Of a DNA stretch of 64,000 nt, positions 26,880 through 35,532 are shown one piece after another; the first letter of the stretch is position 1; each line of letters starts with the position of its first letter. The translations under genes and the position numbers were made by a program. The notes below the pieces were generated by a model. That model saw only the letters and a list, made by a program, of their open reading frames with translations. It had not been told where the DNA came from and made no database searches. Source of the DNA: Heterostelium multicystogenum (Eukaryota > Evosea > Eumycetozoa > Acytosteliales > Acytosteliaceae); the NCBI GenBank assembly GCA_003667245.1, contig RCNN01000064.1, forward strand, positions 54,326 through 118,325, given 5' to 3'.

Positions 26880-27240
26880 TGGTTTCATCATCTTCGTCGT
26901 CATCGTCCATCCAGTGAAGCTGTGTTGCTTCTAATTCATCATCACCATCTCCAGATGACGTCTCATCAGGTGAGTGTGATATTCTCCTTGACCTCATTGT
27001 CCGGAGTTCCAGTTGGCGTATCGTTGATAGCCTCTGGTGTCTCGACAGTTACTGTTGGTACAGTAACTGGAGTCTCAACAGTTGCAGTTGATACTTGTCT
27101 AGAATCTACAACTAAGGATCCAACTGTTGAGACTCCAGTTACTGGACTAACCCAGTCTTTATGTAGTACTATGGCAATTAGATTGCTGTATAGTGTCTCG
27201 TTGGTTATGTTGACTCAATGCACGATTCGATTTTGAAGCC
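26880..27240 (-). pseudogene. possible remnant of a pol linker region with inverted repeat
   Basis: The minus strand reads Thr/Val/Glu/Pro-rich sequence (VETPVTVPTVTVETPEAIND). This resembles the Ser/Thr/Asp-rich linker between protease and reverse transcriptase of the intact element (about 32440-32720), and a GATGACGTCTCATCA string is shared with it. It contains a 24-bp perfect inverted repeat. I infer an old element fragment; low complexity makes the match uncertain. Confidence 0.35.
27061..27144. repeat. 24-bp perfect inverted repeat, 36-bp loop
   Basis: The arm at 27061-27084 is the exact reverse complement of 27121-27144. Pairing continues imperfectly for about seven more bases outward. 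RNA from either strand could form a long hairpin. Confidence 0.9.
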
Positions 27241-27335
27241 TGTTGTTTGGTGTTTTTTTAAAAATATAATATAAGGCTAATATTCTATATTATTATATAT
27301 ACTGAATTATATTTCTAAAAAAAAAATTATTAGTA

Positions 27336-27420
27336 GGCTCCATAGCATAGTTGGTTTATTGTACTTCCCTAGTAAAGGAAGAGTTAGGAAGGGGTCACGA
27401 GTTCGAATCTCGTTGGAGCC
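27336..27420 (+). tRNA. tRNA-Thr (AGU anticodon) with a short intron
   Basis: The seven-base acceptor stem GGCTCCA/TGGAGCC pairs perfectly. The T arm is ACGAG-TTCGAAT-CTCGT. The anticodon stem is CTTCC/GGAAG with loop CTAGTAA, giving anticodon AGT. The gene is 85 bases, about 11 more than expected. The excess sits just after the anticodon, where the stem partner GGAAG occurs twice. Using the second copy leaves a normal five-base variable loop and an 11-base intron at the usual position 37/38. A TTTT terminator follows at 27421-27424. The alternative is an unusual 15-base variable loop. Confidence 0.88.
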
Positions 27421-27472
27421 TTTTCATATACTATTAGTATGCATGCGGTAATTATGGACTTATGGGTTTTTT

Positions 27473-27482
27473 TATATTTTTC
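27473..27482. repeat. target-site duplication, left SINE-like copy (5' side)
   Basis: The 10-bp sequence TATATTTTTC is repeated exactly at 27888-27897, immediately after the poly(A) tail of the element. Confidence 0.85.
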
Positions 27483-27887
27483 GCCCAAGGCAGAATAGCT
27501 GATGTGGTATGGTAGTCTGCTTGTGACGCCTTGGGTCGTGGGTTCGAATCCGGAGTTTTCCAGTTTTTCCCCATACACTTCCAGTGAACCCATGTACTTT
27601 CAAGTCTGTATGATACCATCCCGCATGAAGAATATGTAAATTGACAAGCGAAGCCCTCAACTACGTAAACCATTGGTGTACTCTTAAAAATCTTCTGTCG
27701 CTTCGAAATACTTAACAGTCCACTGTTGAAAACACCTTGCTCCAAATAATAATAGGCAGTCATGCCTCTATAAAATGATGGTCATCACAACCGGCCTGTG
27801 GTTGTAAAAAGAAATCTGTAGGCTTCTAAACCCTACCTTAAATAAACAACTGTATGGTTATAACAACAAAAAACAAAAAAAAAAAAA
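27483..27887 (+). mobile_element. tRNA-headed SINE-like retroposon, copy 1 (full length)
   Basis: A 405-bp unit. The first 80 bases resemble a tRNA: a pol III A-box-like TAGCTGATGTGG and a perfect B box GGTTCGAATCC (27541-27551). The anticodon-like arm reads TCTGC-TTGTGAC, which would be His (GTG), with the 3' half of that stem lost. A T5 run follows at about 27563. The body carries AATAAA at 27840-27845 and ends in an A-rich tail (27858-27887). Exact 10-bp duplications flank it. It starts 62 bp downstream of tRNA-Thr, in the same orientation. The second copy (inverted, near 35026-35406) starts at the same base and is nearly identical by eye. Structure, tail and duplications fit LINE-mobilised SINEs; it encodes no protein. 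I know of no described dictyostelid family like it. Confidence 0.8.
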
Positions 27888-27897
27888 TATATTTTTC

Positions 27898-27949
27898 CCA
27901 GTACACTTCCAGTGAACCCATGTACTTTAAAGTCTTTATGATACCATAG
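27898..27949 (+). mobile_element. older SINE-like fragment
   Basis: Bases 27898-27949 repeat the internal segment 27575-27625 of the full copy in the same orientation with several substitutions (CACTTCCAGTGAACCCATGT is shared). It lies directly after the duplication of copy 1, so copy 1 probably inserted next to or into an older element. Confidence 0.7.
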
Positions 27950-28540
27950 GGATGACAGAAAACTTGGAAGTGATGATACGAGCCGAGATGGTTAGTTTAA
28001 ATTTATCGAACCTACCTCATACCAAGTTGAGTTCCTCAAAAGAAGAATTAAGACAGAATGTGTTGTCGGCGAATTGAAGGAACTTCACAGGTCCAATGGG
28101 TAGAAGAGATGAGAAGGGGAATTGGACAGTAAGAGCAATGGCTGTTTAGAGGTAAAAAGTCCAGCTCCAGTCGGACTATCAAACCCTTTAAGTCATAGAG
28201 TACTTTAAAAGCCCTCTACTTTTACTGATTTTTCTCCTCTTCTGACCCATTATTACTGAGACCAACAATGTTGATTCTCTCTTCTATTAGACATTAACCC
28301 ACATAACAAGGATTGAACACTCCTGGCTACCTGAAGGGTAGAGGAACTGGGGTGGCTGTCATTTCACACTACGACAGAATTAAAATCACACCTACCACTC
28401 TGGATAATAAAATCTCAAAGTATCATGGGTGGATACCAGTAATTAATATCTCAACATTATAATCTCTTCGTTGTGTAAAATAGTTAGTTATTGTTCCCAA
28501 GAATTTCGGAATTTTTGATTAAAAAAAAATAGAAGAATTT
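27950..28540. other. degraded mobile DNA with possible non-LTR endonuclease fragment
   Basis: GC content is higher than ordinary spacers here. On the plus strand, 28321-28461 is open and reads TPGYLKGRGTGVAVISHYDR and onward to a stop. This resembles the GRGTGVAV-type core of the AP-endonuclease domain of non-LTR retrotransposons such as dictyostelid TRE elements. The rest has no continuous frame. The assignment is tentative and needs a protein search. Confidence 0.3.
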
Positions 28541-28990
28541 TGTAGAAAAGTCATGGAAATTCCATAGAAACCCCTGTGACAGTCCAGATTGCCTCCGAAC
28601 CGCAATGATGTCCAAACCGATTGTTTACCAGGATGGATCGATGACTCAGCGAGACAACCGACCGGGAAAACAATAAGTATAAATACCCGATGAAATCCTT
28701 GGTTACAGATATTATATTCTATTCATTGTTATAAGATTATTAATATCATAACCAAGGTATGTAATTTAAAGATAATTAAATAAATATTATATTCTATTCA
28801 TTGTTATAAGATTATTAATATCATAACCAAGCTTTCTACTTTATCACTCTCATCAATCTTTTGTTAAAGAGTTTTTTTTTTTTTTTTTTTTTAAGGAGTA
28901 AAAATTGAAGTATTAAGCTTTATTTTTCGGATGACCGAAGCCATTCTTTTGTTAAAGAGTACTATTCTATAATAGATAATACACTTTACA
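28541..28990 (+). mobile_element. solo LTR, opposite orientation to the full element
   Basis: The sequence is the reverse complement of the LTRs at 29046-29428 and 34642-35025, starting TGTAGAAAAG and ending CTTTACA. It lacks one of two copies of a roughly 23-bp sub-repeat near its start (one GGAAATTCCATAG unit instead of two). It is interrupted at 28873-28960 by a separate insertion with its duplication. ATTT may flank it as a short target duplication (28537-28540 and 28994-28997). Confidence 0.88.
28873..28944 (-). mobile_element. 52-nt retrocopy with poly(A) tail inside the solo LTR
   Basis: Read on the minus strand, the insert is about 52 nt followed by about 20 A (the T run 28872-28892). 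AATAAA sits about 25 bases before the tail, as in a polyadenylated RNA. The 16-bp LTR sequence TCTTTTGTTAAAGAGT is exactly duplicated at 28857-28872 and 28945-28960. This is a standard target-primed, 5'-truncated retroposition. The parent RNA is not in this window. The 5' end holds a small hairpin (TTCGG-TCAT-CCGAA). Confidence 0.8.
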
Positions 28991-28998
28991 AAAATTTT

Positions 28999-29010
28999 TC
29001 CTTGATTTAA
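28999..29010. repeat. target-site duplication of SINE-like copy 2 (tail side)
   Basis: TCCTTGATTTAA at 28999-29010 recurs exactly at 35407-35418, just outside the tRNA-like head. The two copies are now separated by the nested retrotransposon. Confidence 0.85.
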
Positions 29011-29045
29011 TTTTTTTTTTTTTTTTTTTTTTTGTTGTTATTTTT

Positions 29046-29428
29046 TGTAAAGTGTATTATCTATTATAGAATAGTACTCTTTAACAAAAGATTGATGAGA
29101 GTGATAAAGTAGAAAAGCTTGGTTATGATATTAATAATCTTATAACAATGAATAGAATATAATATTTATTTAATTATCTTTAAATACATACCTTGGTTAT
29201 GATATTAATAATCTTATAACAATGAATAGAATATAATATCTGTAACCAAGGATTTCATCGGGTATTTATACTTATTGTTTTCCGGTCGGTTGTCTCGCTG
29301 AGTCATCGATCCATCCTGGTAAACAATCGGTTTGGACATCATTGCGGTTCGGAGGCAATCTGAGTTGTCACTGGGGCTTCTATGGAATTTCCACGAGTTC
29401 TCTATGGAATTTCCATGACTTTTCTACA
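29046..29428 (-). repeat. 3' LTR of the gypsy element
   Basis: Differs from the 5' LTR by only about one small change near 29335. Starts TGTAGA and ends TTTACA on the minus strand. It contains an internal direct repeat of about 47 bp (TTGGTTATGATATTAATAATC and on) present twice. A purine-rich tract (GGTGAGGGATG) precedes it on the element strand and fits a polypurine tract. Confidence 0.93.
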
Positions 29429-29593
29429 CATCCCTCACCAGGATGTAAATACACGTGTTGAGATAATAAATAAATTGAGTTGGAGTTGAAATAATATAAA
29501 TTGAGTTGAAGTTGAATAATATAATGAAGTTGGAGTTCATGTTGCGTGTTGAAGTTGAATTTTGAGAAATTTTGTGAAAATGATCAATCGTAC
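29429..29593 (-). other. 3' untranslated segment of the gypsy element
   Basis: Non-coding DNA between the chromodomain stop and the LTR. It contains about three imperfect units of GAGTTGGAGTTGAAATAATATA-like sequence (29473-29545). Confidence 0.6.
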
Positions 29594-32500
29594 TTATTTT
29601 TTTTGTTGTTTGTTGTAGTTGTATGCAGTTATTTTAGATGGTGATACTTCGTTTAATAGTTTATGTGGAACCCATTCGTTATGATCGTTATCTAGACCAA
29701 CATAGCTAACTAAGTATTCTAGTCTAGATCCTTTACCATAAGTTCTGGTGCGATCAGTGATGATAGTATCGACATCGGAGAGAATAGGTTTATCTGGTAC
29801 TTCACCAATAAATAACTTTAGATCACCGGTATGTACTTTACGTAGATTCTTCTTTTTGTTGTTAATCTCGATCGTGTAGTTGATATCCGACGATTTTTTG
29901 AACGATTTTGAATGGTCCACACCAATGTAGTCTTGTTTTCTTATCATCATCTGTGTTGGACTTGTGAGTGTCTAATCGTGATCTCTTTACTAATACCCAG
30001 TCTCCTACATTATAATTAACAGTGACTCGATCGTTATTATAATTCTTAGACATGTTGATTTGGTAATCTAACAGATTAGTTTTAGCAGCGGCACGATATA
30101 GGTCTTGAGATTCTTTGTAGTCTTTGAATGATGTGTTGTGAGCATTCCATGGCAGTTTAATCTCGTATCCATATACGATTTGGTTTGGCGAGAATTGAGT
30201 GGCACGAGATACATTATTGTTGATGGTAGCTTCCAAGAGACGGATGTCTCTGGCCCAGTTGTCTTTGTTTTCGACGGATTTGCGAAGATGGTCAATGATT
30301 GTTCTGTTGACACGTTCAGTTTGTCCATCTGCTTGAGGTCTTCCTGGCTGGGTCATGTTGAGAGTGGTTCCGAGTGAACGCATAGTTGATTGCCATAGAT
30401 TCGAAGTGAACTTGGGGTCCATATCAGATACAATGGATCTTGGTGTACCATATACAGCAACTATTTCACGGGCGAACCAATCGCCAACAGTCTTGGAATC
30501 GATTGATTTGTTACATGGGAATAGTCTCACCATTTTGGACATTCTATCTACGACTACCAATAAATTGTCTTCGCCAGTGGATGCCTTCGGTAGAGTTAGA
30601 AAGTCCATTGTGATATCAAGCCATGGTCGTTCGGGTGTTGGTAGCGGACATAGTAATCCAGCTTTGGTTCTTTGAATAGAGTTCTTCTGACAATTCTGGC
30701 AATTGGAAATGAAGGATCTTATTGATTTAAACATGTTATGCCAAACATATGCTTTTGATACCTTGTCGAACGTTCTATTGATGCCAATGTGGCTTGAGTA
30801 CCGAACGGAGTGTGCTTCTCTTAGAATGATATCAATGTGTTTCTTGTCAACGATGACTAATCTCATATCATCGTCTTGGAGCCAATACCATAGGTTCTCT
30901 TGTTTGAATACGTCTTGTCGAGCGGTTAATCCTTTGAACCATTCCGATATGACCTTATCATCGATGGTGTCGTATGATCTTCTTATGTCATCGAGTAAGT
31001 CGGAATCCCATGGTGTTGTGAACGAAGGAGTTCTTGATAGATAATCGGCTAAAGTGTTGTCGGTACCCGGAATGTAAGATACTCTGAAGTTGAATCTACT
31101 TAGCAATTCATACCATCTAACAATTCTTGGATTATCACAATCTAGATTTCCTTTGTATAGGAGGTTTTTGTGGTCACTGTATACCACAAATGGTTTATCT
31201 TGTAGATAATAGCGATACCTTGTGAGTGCATGTATGATGGCTAGCATCTCACGCTCTTTAGTATGATAGTTTCTCTGTGCGGAATCAAACTTTCTAGAGT
31301 CATAGAGTATCGGTCTTAGTTTTCCATCTACGTCATGTTGAGCAAGTGTTAGACCGGTGCCATAATCGGAGGCGTCGACGAACAAGTGGAACATTTTGTC
31401 TGGTCGTGGAGCCATAAGGACCTTGGCACTACACATCTCACGCTTGATATCATTGAAATCGGCGATGTGTTGATCGGTCAATGTGATCTTCTTTGATCTA
31501 GACGCGGTAAGATCAGTTAGTCTAGCAAGCTGAGGTCCCATATTTTGTAGATGGTGTCTATAGAAGTTAACGGCACCAATGAAACCTCTAAGTTGCTTTA
31601 CTGTCTGTGGAACTGGCATATTTTCAATTGCTTTGATCTTATCGTGCTTTGGTTGGATGCCTTTAGCGGAAATTAGATGACCGGCATACTCAACCATGGT
31701 CTTAAATAGTCTACACTTGGACTTTGCGATGAATACTTTGTGTTCCTCAAGGAGTTTGAATACTTGCTTGAGGTGCTCTTGATGTTCCTCAACGGTCTTC
31801 GAGTAGATGAGGATATCATCGACGTAGAGTTGGACGAATCCTTTCTTTATTAATGGATTCAGTATATGTCTCAGCCATCTATTGAAGAATGCGGGAGAGT
31901 TCTTTAGACCGAAGGAAGGTCTAGTATACATATACAGTTTGCCATTGGCAGCGAAGGTGGTGTATTTTCTTGAATCTTTGTCAAGTAGTAACTGGAAGAA
32001 TCCACTCTTTGCATCCAAGACGGAAAAGATGATGGCACCATGAATTTGGTTGAGTATCTCGTCTATTCTGGACATAGGATACGCATAGTCAACCGTGAGA
32101 TCGTTGATCTTGGTGAAGTCGATGACCATTCTTTCCTTGGAAGTTCCTCGATTAGCGATAAAGGGTGGTGAGCACCAAGGAGTGTTGATAGGTGCAGGCA
32201 CAATGACACCTATTTTCAAGAGTTTCTCTACTTCTTGGTTGATCTTCTTGTTTTCTTCTTCGGATCTTCTGCCATAGCTTAATTTTACTGGTACAGAGTT
32301 TGGTACTATTTCAATCTTCATGTTGAACTGTCCTCTGTCTGGTGGTTTGGAATCTGGAAGTTGGTCGACTAGCAAGTCGGAGTACATTTCCATCATTACT
32401 TGTGCTAGTGCTTCCAGTTCTGCGTTCGATTCTGAGATCTGTGTCTCCTCATCATCGTCTTCTTCATATTGATTGTTGAAGTGAATCGGATGAGCATGCT

Positions 32501-33293
32501 CGATGATTTCATCCCCCTCCGGAGATGATGACGTCTCATCATCGGCGGCAACAGTTGCATCTATAGTGTCTGTTGTAATTGAATCGATACTTGTGTTGGA
32601 ACTGCTTTCATCATTCTCATCTGTGCGAATTTCCAACGGTTGTGTATCCTTGTTTCCATCTTTAGTGGAGTGTGATACTTGCTCTGTCCCATCTTTTGCA
32701 GGATCAGTAGCGACCGGATAGGCGTCCATGGTAACGGTACCGGTTGGTTTGGAGGTGGCGATAGCTGCTATATCTCTTGGTCTAAGGCTCTCCATATTGA
32801 TTTTATCCAGGTTGATCAGTAGAGGATTAGTTTTTCCTTCCGTGAACTTGTTATTGTTTGAGATCACGGACACTTTGGCTAGAGCTACGGATTTCTTGAA
32901 CCGGACGGGTAACTTTAAGTGTGGTTCTTTGGTGAACAGCTGCGCAACTGGTTGGATCTTTCCAAAGACATTGTTACCAAGTATAATTTTATAATCATTG
33001 TCATAAACGAAGAAAGGTGCCTTTAGGTTGATAGATACCTCTTCGTTTTCCACGATGCCATTTAGTGTGAAGTTGAGGTGGACAAATGATTTAACAACGT
33101 ATGTCTTGGTGGATGCCACTGGTTTAATAACTTGGTGACATACGTGTTCTTTCAGGCCGAGCTTCTCTACGACTGCTGGATCTATAAGGGAGACCTGAGA
33201 TCCCAGATCCATTAAAGCTCTGAATGTTTCCTCATCGGCAGTCATATCGATGAAGAAGCCAGCGTTTTTCCAAACGAGACCATTAATTCTCAC
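29594..33293 (-). CDS. gypsy-type pol: protease, RT, RNase H, integrase, chromodomain
   Basis: Polyprotein of a Ty3/gypsy retrotransposon confined to the amoeba genome. Domains in order: aspartic protease (LMDLGSQVSLID); Thr/Ser/Asp-rich linker; reverse transcriptase with LYVDDILIYS (YVDD catalytic box); RNase H (HLFVDASDYGTG, then REMLAIIHAL); zinc-binding HHCC integrase head ending NCQNCQ; and integrase core with the Asp, Asp and Glu of TMDFL, VSDMDPKF and QTERVNR. The main frame stops at 29862. An overlapping frame carries the chromodomain-like C-terminus (YLVSYVGLDNDHNEWVPHKLL) to 29594. One base in the A-run near 29888 separates them, probably an indel. A chromodomain is typical of Skipper-type dictyostelid elements. 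There is no ATG at 33293; expression is probably by frameshift from gag. Confidence 0.93.
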
Positions 33294-34471
33294 CGCCTTT
33301 GGCTGGTGATCTGTTTTGGCCTTGGCTTTTTGAAGGAGCGTCCGCGGTTACTCCCCGAGTTTGTGCCATGGCTGTAATTGTTCTTTCCATCTTGTTTCTT
33401 GATTTGACTGGAATCTTTGTTCTGTTCCTTATGGAATTGGTTTTGACTGCGGTTTTGAAATCTGGTTGATTCGCGAGTGGGTTGTGCTAACAGTTCCTTG
33501 GCAGCATTATCAAGTGCGATGGCCCAGTCATTTATGACGCGGGTATCTATATCTCTGGCATTCATGACTTTATGGATGGCGCTATCGTCTAAGCTGTCAG
33601 TGCTGTTGAATCTTTTGAATAAGTAACCACCTTTGTAGCGCTGGAGTACATCTGTGATGGCATTGGTGATATCTTTAGGTACTACATCTTTCATACGGTT
33701 CCATTCGTGGAGTAGTTGGATCAGCTCTTGTCTGTTACGAAGATTGTTTTGAAGATTAAACTTGTTGATCTTATCTTCAAAGAATCTTTTGGTTTCATCT
33801 TCGTAATGAAGAGTTTCGATTATCCACTTGCAAAAGTCGTCCCAGGAATTTGAGTGGGTTGTCTTTTGATCAGGTTGGAGTAGTGACCATGCCAAATTGA
33901 CTTTAGGATGGGATCTGGTGATGCTCATGGCGTATCTGACTTGTTCAGGTGTGTTCTTGTGCTTCAAACCAGCTTCTTCTGTGAGACTATCGATCGTTGT
34001 TGTTGGTGATCGTTGGTTGACGAGGTCTATCACATTATGGAGTTGTGACTTGGTAATCTTAATTGTTGTTTTACCAGGCTCAATTTCGACAACGTCATAG
34101 TTATTTTGGTCTTCTCTTTCATTCACAACTGGTTTCTTGACTGTAGTAGCAGGATCGGGTTTGATATTTAGATTTTGGATAATATCTAAAGAGTCGATGA
34201 GCTTGTTGTTTTTATGCTTGAGATCATCGTTCTCGGCTTTGAGTTGATCGTTAGCGGATTCGAGTTTCGTACGCTGGATAACGACGGTCTTGAGAATGTC
34301 AAACATTGCTTCTAGGACTGAGATGGAGAGAGGTAATTCCTTAACTAACTCTTGGTTCTCATAAGCATCATTGATGAGTTTTGACAACTGTTCTCTGGTA
34401 AGGTTTTGATCCTTGGCTACGATTGAGTTTAAGTCTTCTATTTTCAATTGTGATTTGTTGAGTTCGGCCAT
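33290..34471 (-). CDS. gypsy-type gag
   Basis: Structural protein of the retrotransposon, 393 residues from ATG at 34469-34471 to the TGA at 33290-33292. It has a leucine-rich coiled coil near residues 70-100 (KLESANDQLKAENDDLKHKNNKL). A central helical capsid-like region includes AMSITRSHPKVNLAWSLLQPDQ and FCKWIIETLHYEDETKRFFEDK. The C-terminus is basic and Gln/Arg/Lys-rich (GSNRGRSFKKPRPKQI). No CCHC zinc knuckle is visible, so RNA binding probably uses the basic tail. Pol is in the -1 frame and open upstream to about 33347, giving an overlap of about 55 bases. The run TTCAAAAAGCC there is a candidate slippage site. Confidence 0.9.
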   Translation of the reverse strand: MAELNKSQLKIEDLNSIVAKDQNLTREQLSKLINDAYENQELVKELPLSISVLEAMFDILKTVVIQRTKLESANDQLKAENDDLKHKNNKLIDSLDIIQNLNIKPDPATTVKKPVVNEREDQNNYDVVEIEPGKTTIKITKSQLHNVIDLVNQRSPTTTIDSLTEEAGLKHKNTPEQVRYAMSITRSHPKVNLAWSLLQPDQKTTHSNSWDDFCKWIIETLHYEDETKRFFEDKINKFNLQNNLRNRQELIQLLHEWNRMKDVVPKDITNAITDVLQRYKGGYLFKRFNSTDSLDDSAIHKVMNARDIDTRVINDWAIALDNAAKELLAQPTRESTRFQNRSQNQFHKEQNKDSSQIKKQDGKNNYSHGTNSGSNRGRSFKKPRPKQITSQRR

Positions 34472-34641
34472 AATTGATAAGATAAATGGATAATGCTGAG
34501 AATATTTAAATAGTTGATATTTATATATTTAAATAATTATAAGTGTTTTATATATATATAGGTTGAATAGTACGGCCTTCGATGTTCCACCCGGGTGTAG
34601 AAGGATATACTGTTAAATTAAAAAAGTAAAAATAAAAGTTT

Positions 34642-35025
34642 TGTAAAGTGTATTATCTATTATAGAATAGTACTCTTTAACAAAAGATTGATGAGAGTGA
34701 TAAAGTAGAAAAGCTTGGTTATGATATTAATAATCTTATAACAATGAATAGAATATAATATTTATTTAATTATCTTTAAATACATACCTTGGTTATGATA
34801 TTAATAATCTTATAACAATGAATAGAATATAATATCTGTAACCAAGGATTTCATCGGGTATTTATACTTATTGTTTTCCGGTCGGTTGTCTCGCTGAGTC
34901 ATCGATCCATCCTGGTAAACAATCGGTTTGACACATCATTGCGGTTCGGAGGCAATCTGAGTTGTCACTGGGGCTTCTATGGAATTTCCACGAGTTCTCT
35001 ATGGAATTTCCATGACTTTTCTACA
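34642..35025 (-). repeat. 5' LTR of the gypsy element
   Basis: 384 bp, nearly identical to the 3' LTR. The near-identity implies recent insertion. Immediately inside it I see no canonical TGG primer-binding start; a TGGAACATCG-like string lies about 50 bases further in. The outer edge meets the SINE-like copy at TTATAACC, and TTAT also precedes the other end, which fits a 4-bp target duplication. Confidence 0.93.
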
Positions 35026-35406
35026 TTATAACCATACAGTTGTTTATTTAAGGTAGGGTTTAGAAGCCTACAGATTTCTTTTTACAAACCACAGGCCGGT
35101 TGTGATGACCATCATTTTATAGAGGCAGGACTGCCTATTATTATTTGGAGCAAGGTGTTTCAACAGTGGACTGTTAAGTATTTCGAAGCGACAGAAGATT
35201 TTTAAGAGTACACCAATGGTTTACGTAGTTGAGGGCTTCGCTTGTCAATTTACATATTCTTCATGGCGGATGGTATCATACAGACTTGAGAGTACATGGG
35301 TTCACTTGAAGTGTATGGGGAAAAACTGGAAAACCCGGGATTCGAACCCACGACCCAAAGCGTCACAAGCAGACTACCATACCACATCAGCTATTCTGCC
35401 TTGGGC

Positions 35407-35418
35407 TCCTTGATTTAA
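35407..35418. repeat. target-site duplication of SINE-like copy 2 (head side)
   Basis: Exact partner of 28999-29010 (TCCTTGATTTAA), 44 bp downstream of the 3' end of tRNA-Glu. Confidence 0.85.
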
Positions 35419-35461
35419 AGGAATAATATCCGCATGCGTTAACAACCACTTAAAATTTGAG

Positions 35462-35532
35462 CTCCCTATCCGGGAATCGAACCCGGGGTTTCAGTGTGAA
35501 AGACTAATGTGTTACCACTACACCAATAAGGA
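35462..35532 (-). tRNA. tRNA-Glu (UUC anticodon)
   Basis: On the minus strand the acceptor stem TCCTTAT pairs with ATAGGGA (one G-U pair), with G as discriminator. The D arm is GGTGTAGTGGTAACAC-like. The anticodon arm TTAGT-CTTTCAC-ACTGA gives TTC. The T arm is CCGGG-TTCGATT-CCCGG. No intron. A T4 run follows downstream at about 35450-35453. It faces tRNA-Thr, and all mobile DNA lies between their 3' ends. Confidence 0.93.

Follow-up and report, generated by a model that had tools for sequence, protein, structure and literature searches.

Dictyostelid retrotransposons are a standard case of harm avoidance by homing on tRNA genes (PMC5006619). TRE3 elements, 4-5 kb long and encoding a reverse transcriptase (RT), lie behind these genes, Pp_TRE3-B at 57-151 bp, as do the long terminal repeat (LTR) elements of the Skipper-2 type (PMC5006619). 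A survey of 3 kb on either side of tRNA genes in five dictyostelids describes LTR and non-LTR elements only, and a term search found 'SINE' and 'short interspersed' absent from the main text of that article (PMC5006619). Here we describe a short interspersed element (SINE) present twice in a 64,000-nucleotide stretch of the Heterostelium multicystogenum genome (contig RCNN01000064.1, positions 54,326 to 118,325; hereafter the window). We propose, with a probability of about 0.8, that it is a young dictyostelid SINE moved through its A tail by a TRE3-like long interspersed element (LINE) of the L1 type, which supplies the tRNA-gene targeting in trans.

Like TRE3 elements, the SINE lies behind tRNA genes in the orientation of the gene, carries an A tail and starts at an overlapping distance, but at ~0.4 kb, with a head containing A and B boxes and without a long frame, ORF1/ORF2 or RT, it is not a TRE. 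In its shortness, 5' A and B boxes, A tail and duplications it resembles the poly(A)-tailed tRNA-related SINEs of L1-type LINEs, the 'relaxed' class, whose members need no shared LINE 3' end (PMC3414825). Unlike them, nearly all SINE copies examined here lie behind tRNA genes in one orientation. The 'relaxed' poly(A) class is otherwise dispersed. The nearest precedent for a borrowed address is provided by the R2 and R2/R1 SIDEs of Drosophila, where a non-autonomous passenger uses the target of the LINE that moves it; those passengers, however, are LINE-derived pieces, target the 28S gene and are stated not to be transcribed by RNA polymerase III (Pol III) (PMC3414825). Several loci of this genome have LTR-type elements positioned, like Skipper-2, behind the tRNA gene and ahead of the SINE, but Skipper-2 moves by an LTR/integrase mechanism and the SINE has no LTR. 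An LTR-type mechanism for the SINE was rejected.

SINE counts produced by RepeatMasker have been printed for D. discoideum (88) and D. purpureum (57), with no family, sequence or target stated alongside them (PMC4683709). These RepBase software counts share only a label with the present element and are not comparable with it. The view taken in the preliminary description of this DNA, that no SINE family of social amoebae had been described, is not contradicted, save that unnamed counts exist. Among the entries listed in the open-licence literature there was neither a dictyostelid SINE family nor a SINE targeting tRNA genes, which does not prove absence from print; within that literature, this would be the first characterised dictyostelid SINE family and a SINE with a target.

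A young family of short A-tailed elements

The preliminary description reported two units of about 405 bp that begin at the same base, end in A-rich tails and are flanked by duplications of 10 bp and 12 bp; coordinates and repeats agree with ours. Copy 2 is 97.4% identical to copy 1 over positions 1-381 (35406-35026, minus strand). On the + strand of the window, the target sequence of copy 1, TATATTTTTC, occurs at 27473 and 27888 only, and that of copy 2, TCCTTGATTTAA, at 28999 and 35407 only. To place these units in a family, we searched the assembly to which the window belongs (29.7 Mb in 528 contigs). The best 40 of 103 candidates for the 405 bp unit, which were scored, yielded at least 54 matches; 40 of these, at 96-100% identity, cover nearly the full length of the unit. 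Genome-wide pattern scans allowing up to three mismatches detected 60 heads, 64 B-box regions and 64 3' ends, against 0 each for the reversed patterns used as controls. These sites group into about 83 clusters, and some represent the two halves of a single copy that a later event divided (for example C18, C137, C458 and C466, in our own contig numbering). The SINE-like family suspected from two units was thus borne out, with copies far in excess of two.

Further counts refer to 51 full-length copies, defined by a head beginning at position 4 or earlier and a match reaching position 396 or later; this set excludes fragments and partial heads, among them the interrupted copy 2 of the window. Since C493 duplicates the C492 locus, independent numbers are one lower. 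The core preceding the long A run measures 373-393 bp and the run itself 9-32. Measured against the commonest base, the copies diverge by a median of 0.78%, and four carry no substitution. Reading frames are short, 45 aa on the plus strand and up to 103 aa on the minus strand, the latter extending into the flank. Headed copies start at the same base (within 3 bases), mostly right after the duplicated target, and we therefore rejected the possibility that a longer coding element ends in this unit. Target duplications of at least 8 bp adjoining the A tail were found in 31 of the 51 copies, compared with 0.44% when flanks of different copies were mispaired. One further copy, L079, is truncated at its 5' end, has a 14 bp duplication and lies 85 bp 3' of a tRNA gene; such a truncated copy with a duplication is predicted by target-primed reverse transcription. 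Common 5' end, tails, duplications and truncation together fit the retroposition suggested in the preliminary description. Short, dispersed, A-tailed and flanked by target duplications, the unit is a SINE by structure, and the family, of ~385 bp plus A tail, is young.

Fragments of 68-83% identity also exist, showing that the family has a history. At two loci, L004 (C186) and L016 (C60), SINEs were seen inserted at about position 48 of an older SINE, within its head and ~100-114 bp 3' of a tRNA gene.

Placement behind tRNA genes

The most unusual feature of the family, beyond what the preliminary description covered, emerged when tRNA genes were called with ARAGORN and the Rfam tRNA model: both window copies lie behind such genes (27335-27422 on the plus strand, 35461-35532 on the minus strand), starting 60 bp and 54 bp 3' of them respectively and in the same orientation. 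Genome-wide, the 300 bp upstream of 45 of the 60 heads contain a same-strand tRNA gene; for 14 heads such a gene lies farther upstream, with other sequence in between, and for one none was found. Among the 51 full-length copies, ARAGORN alone placed such a gene within this distance in 38 cases, at 47-242 bp (median 77.5), and 37 of these 38 direct cases start 47-152 bp 3' of the gene. By comparison, a random point would lie no more than 300 bp downstream of a same-strand tRNA gene in ~0.2% of cases, a yardstick that assumes the 418 tRNA genes of D. discoideum (PMC5911963), a number that may differ here. Placement was one-sided: no full-length copy (0/51) had an opposite-strand tRNA gene called by ARAGORN within 300 bp upstream.

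The remaining full-length copies follow the same pattern at a greater distance or behind other elements. At C182 (L046) a tRNA gene 53 bp away was detected by the Rfam model only; three copies have theirs at 315, 455 and 892 bp; and in nine, an LTR element, a copy of LINE B (one of two LINE families described below) or other sequence stands between gene and SINE. For six interrupted loci (C80, C77, C217, C168, C340 and C92), we calculated the expected tRNA position from the RT position and the element length and examined stretches of 351-701 bp. All six contained a same-strand tRNA gene at the predicted place. At C56 and C70 the SINE lies behind LINE B with the tRNA gene farther upstream, and at C55 an upstream tRNA gene is indicated only by a B box and the downstream motif discussed below, ~1.5 kb upstream on the same strand. 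Among partial or interrupted heads, the distance is 138 bp at C137, 51 at C82, 59 at C466, 63 at C186 and, by arithmetic, 51 bp at C60, besides the 54 bp of window copy 2; it is larger at C1 (431 bp) and C100 (467 bp).

Such a distribution might arise if insertion were untargeted and only those copies survived that had landed in the harmless space behind tRNA genes, and dictyostelid genomes are indeed compact and haploid (PMC5006619, section 11). Survival bias, however, predicts neither the single orientation nor the narrow range of starts, and the copies have barely diverged, leaving little time for sorting. We consider this explanation very unlikely and rejected it as the sole cause of the placement.

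Counting in the reverse direction, we scored 63 tRNA genes among 1,723 candidates, of which 53 lie outside contig C17. A SINE starts within 400 bp behind 13 of these 53, with starts estimated for 5'-truncated copies. C17, which holds the other ten and is possibly the mitochondrial genome, was omitted from this count. The target genes span 17 amino-acid isotypes (ARAGORN labels, one doubtful Leu omitted), which indicates that recognition extends to a class of genes and is not confined to one sequence. The same variety bears on whether the family spread by duplication of tRNA-SINE cassettes instead of retroposition. One locus was duplicated in this way, as shown by the shared flanks of C492 and C493, but 17 isotypes with varied distances, flanks and duplications leave this route next to no probability, and segmental duplication was rejected except for C492/C493; widespread sharing of flanks beyond the duplications was not seen. 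These two contigs (L047, L057) show the same layout of tRNA gene, SINE and LINE A, the other LINE family; the C493 copy shows the greater divergence, and there are stops in its RT frame.

Inspection of the sequence behind tRNA genes revealed a palindrome, CCGCATGCGG or ATGCGCGCAT, matching at 8 or more of 10 positions and starting 15-27 nt 3' of 53 of 58 distinct tRNA genes, a count that is partly circular, the palindrome having been chosen from these same flanks. It was found in the 60 nt 5' of none of the 58 genes and in 0.9% of shuffled flanks. Searched genome-wide, a B box followed after 24-44 nt by GCATGCG gave 35 sites, some of them already-known loci, against 0 for the reversed pattern, and TACCGCATGCGG alone gave 21 matches against 1 in the control. 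All 38 directly measured loci have the motif (7 or more of 10 positions) in the interval separating the tRNA gene from the SINE, at 12-217 bp (median 47.5) ahead of the SINE. We regard the palindrome as a candidate 3' element of Pol III genes, with a role that could be termination, factor binding or targeting; it may be part of the landing signal. Another repeat, around TACCTGATCAGTATCCTATTTATTAAA, occurs near tRNA genes in the flanks of L011, L051 and L054 and is present in both orientations.

Possible partner LINEs and the probable source of the address

Sixty RT matches were found in the genome, and by our sorting those with long LINE spacing belong mainly to two families, LINE A (C492 and others, ~4.5 kb) and LINE B (C56, C70, C92, C49 and others, ~5.2 kb). 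Both have A tails, a first frame without Pfam match and a second frame with RT and an exonuclease/endonuclease-family match, the latter exceeding the curated cut-off in LINE A but not in LINE B. Among named sequences, the best matches of LINE B are from dictyostelids, Acytostelium subglobosum first, at no more than 49% identity. LINE B starts 56, 63 and 70 bp 3' of tRNA genes in the same orientation (C56, C70 and C92), and at C44 the start of LINE A, estimated from the genome-wide scan for B box plus motif and from element length, would lie ~75 bp 3' of a tRNA gene. By published convention (PMC5006619, section 9), elements of this kind are classed as TRE3-like. At C458:1090-6035, judged from coordinates only, a SINE B box and a SINE 3' end flank LINE A as if it had inserted just behind the B box.

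Sharing a target with LINE B, and being short and poly(A)-tailed, the unit might be a cut-down LINE or the end of another element, as SIDEs are, and not an independent SINE. Comparison with LINE A, LINE B and the LTR loci examined, however, revealed A-rich similarity only, apart from the complete SINE copy in L079. C321 was rejected as a LINE ending in SINE 3' sequence: it consists of a truncated LINE B and, behind it, a distinct old fragment of the SINE. The chance that the unit is such a derivative appears slimmer still than that of survival bias.

Alternatively, the SINE might find tRNA genes by itself, if its RNA were made and kept at Pol III sites through its own boxes and copied there by a LINE lacking any address. 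Conservation of the head is compatible with this, since 50 of the 51 full-length copies carry the exact B box and 47 the exact A-box-like sequence. LINE B, however, in which no such head was seen, has the same placement and orientation, indicating that the LINE already has an address. Fixed orientation, moreover, requires a protein-DNA geometry, and runs of T behind the head make long Pol III transcripts doubtful. Self-guidance of the SINE thus seems unlikely.

We instead favour targeting borrowed from a LINE. SINE RNA, with its A/B-box head and A-rich tail, would be picked up by the protein of a TRE3-like, L1-type LINE of the same genome. This protein would be brought to the downstream side of the Pol III gene, probably via contact with Pol III factors, and would nick the DNA mostly ~50-130 bp behind the tRNA gene, whereupon reverse transcription would be primed from the SINE A tail. 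The expected outcome would be duplications of 8-15 bp, a SINE always oriented like the tRNA gene and occasional 5' truncation. The SINE has neither a long frame nor the 3' end of LINE A or LINE B and yet reaches the same place in the same orientation; the address would therefore lie in the protein, acting in trans, and not in a tag on the LINE RNA. We infer the partner from placement, not from sequence. On balance, though with less assurance than for borrowed targeting as such, we also lean towards a fuller account, in which a target-specific SINE owes its address, in trans, to a TRE3-like LINE, arrives with a B box of its own and possibly has the palindrome as part of the landing signal.

Several observations weigh against this proposal. 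By the rule used, 20 of the 51 full-length copies lack a duplication of at least 8 bp, and a clear nick-site consensus was not seen among the 31 duplications. At C18, one of the 60 heads, no tRNA gene was found within 1.47 kb. Beyond A-rich sequence, the 3' end of the SINE has nothing in common with those of LINE A and LINE B, a comparison that covers these two families; LINE remnants exist besides at C52, C57, C105, C468 and C10. The 3' comparison suggested in the preliminary description as a means of finding the partner LINE did not single one out; lack of sharing with the two LINEs fits a partner that recognises poly(A), and the SINE in turn fits the relaxed class.

The head itself raises further difficulties. 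The tRNA covariance model detects no tRNA in it, and the best local alignment with 39 tRNA genes scores 37, where shuffled sequences average 22.5 and reach 47. With similarity inside the shuffle range and no covariance match, the term 'tRNA-like' used in the preliminary description is justified mainly by the two boxes and the order in which they occur. A cloverleaf was sought in the head and not found. Instead, its first nine bases pair with GCCTTGGGT, but the fold (z -0.56) is equalled by 57 of 200 shuffles and both arms are exact in 32 of the 51 copies. Behind the head lie a T4 run at positions 74-77 (exact context in 47/51 copies) and a T5 run at positions 82-86 (36/51). The longest T run within 30 nt 3' of tRNA genes here is only 2-5 in 53 of 58 genes, and Pol III might therefore stop early in the SINE. 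An early stop may be expected unless termination needs more than T's. Transcription of the SINE by Pol III is the weak step of the model.

The window loci and what a borrowed address would mean

Features of the two window loci are collected in Table 1. Copy 1 contains the exact B box GGTTCGAATCC and an A-box-like stretch, both read by eye. Copy 2 has its tail (29042-29011) separated from its body by an LTR retrotransposon, the LTRs of which are 99.5% identical. A protein of the window gave seven distant hits, none of them named as a dictyostelid sequence. Two further observations concern the neighbourhood. An LTR copy at 28543-28872, ~96-97% like the LTRs of that retrotransposon, lies in the opposite orientation and adjoins the LINE A 3' end; and an imperfect inverted repeat around ACAGTAACTGGAGTCTCAACAGTT was noticed by eye at 27040-27150.

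Table 1. SINE copies, target tRNA genes and neighbouring elements, in window positions
Feature	Positions	Strand	Detail
tRNA gene, target of copy 1	27335..27422	+	anticodon uncertain; ARAGORN; Rfam tRNA 51.4 bits
Palindrome-like motif	27439..27448	+	16 nt 3' of tRNA gene; 8/10 match
Target duplication of copy 1, 5' side	27473..27482	+	TATATTTTTC
SINE copy 1	27483..27887	+	A-box-like 27496-27507; B box 27541-27551; terminal A-rich tail
Target duplication of copy 1, 3' side	27888..27897	+	
Remnant of earlier SINE	27892..27947	+	its positions 82-137; 92.9%
LINE A fragments	28135..28394	+	77% and 82%
LINE A 3' end	28872..28944	-	73 bp; 100%
Target duplication of copy 2, element's 3' side	28999..29010	-	TCCTTGATTTAA on +
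SINE copy 2, 3' end and A tail	29011..29042	-	
LTR retrotransposon inside SINE copy 2	29043..35025	-	Pfam RT, RNase H, integrase; 4 bp duplication TTAT
SINE copy 2, positions 1-381	35026..35406	-	
Target duplication of copy 2, element's 5' side	35407..35418	-	
Palindrome-like motif 3' of tRNA-Glu	35430..35439	-	9/10 match
tRNA-Glu(TTC), target of copy 2	35461..35532	-	ARAGORN; Rfam tRNA model

The tRNA genes of this genome accumulate stacks of SINEs, LINEs and LTR elements. If our proposal is true, the tRNA-gene address would be read by a protein and not encoded in LINE RNA, and each insertion, carrying its own B box, may become another landing place for Pol III. A passenger without a long reading frame that has the same address would separate the targeting protein from the RNA carried, so that the way in which TRE3-type elements reach the downstream side of tRNA genes would become testable with a 0.4 kb reporter.

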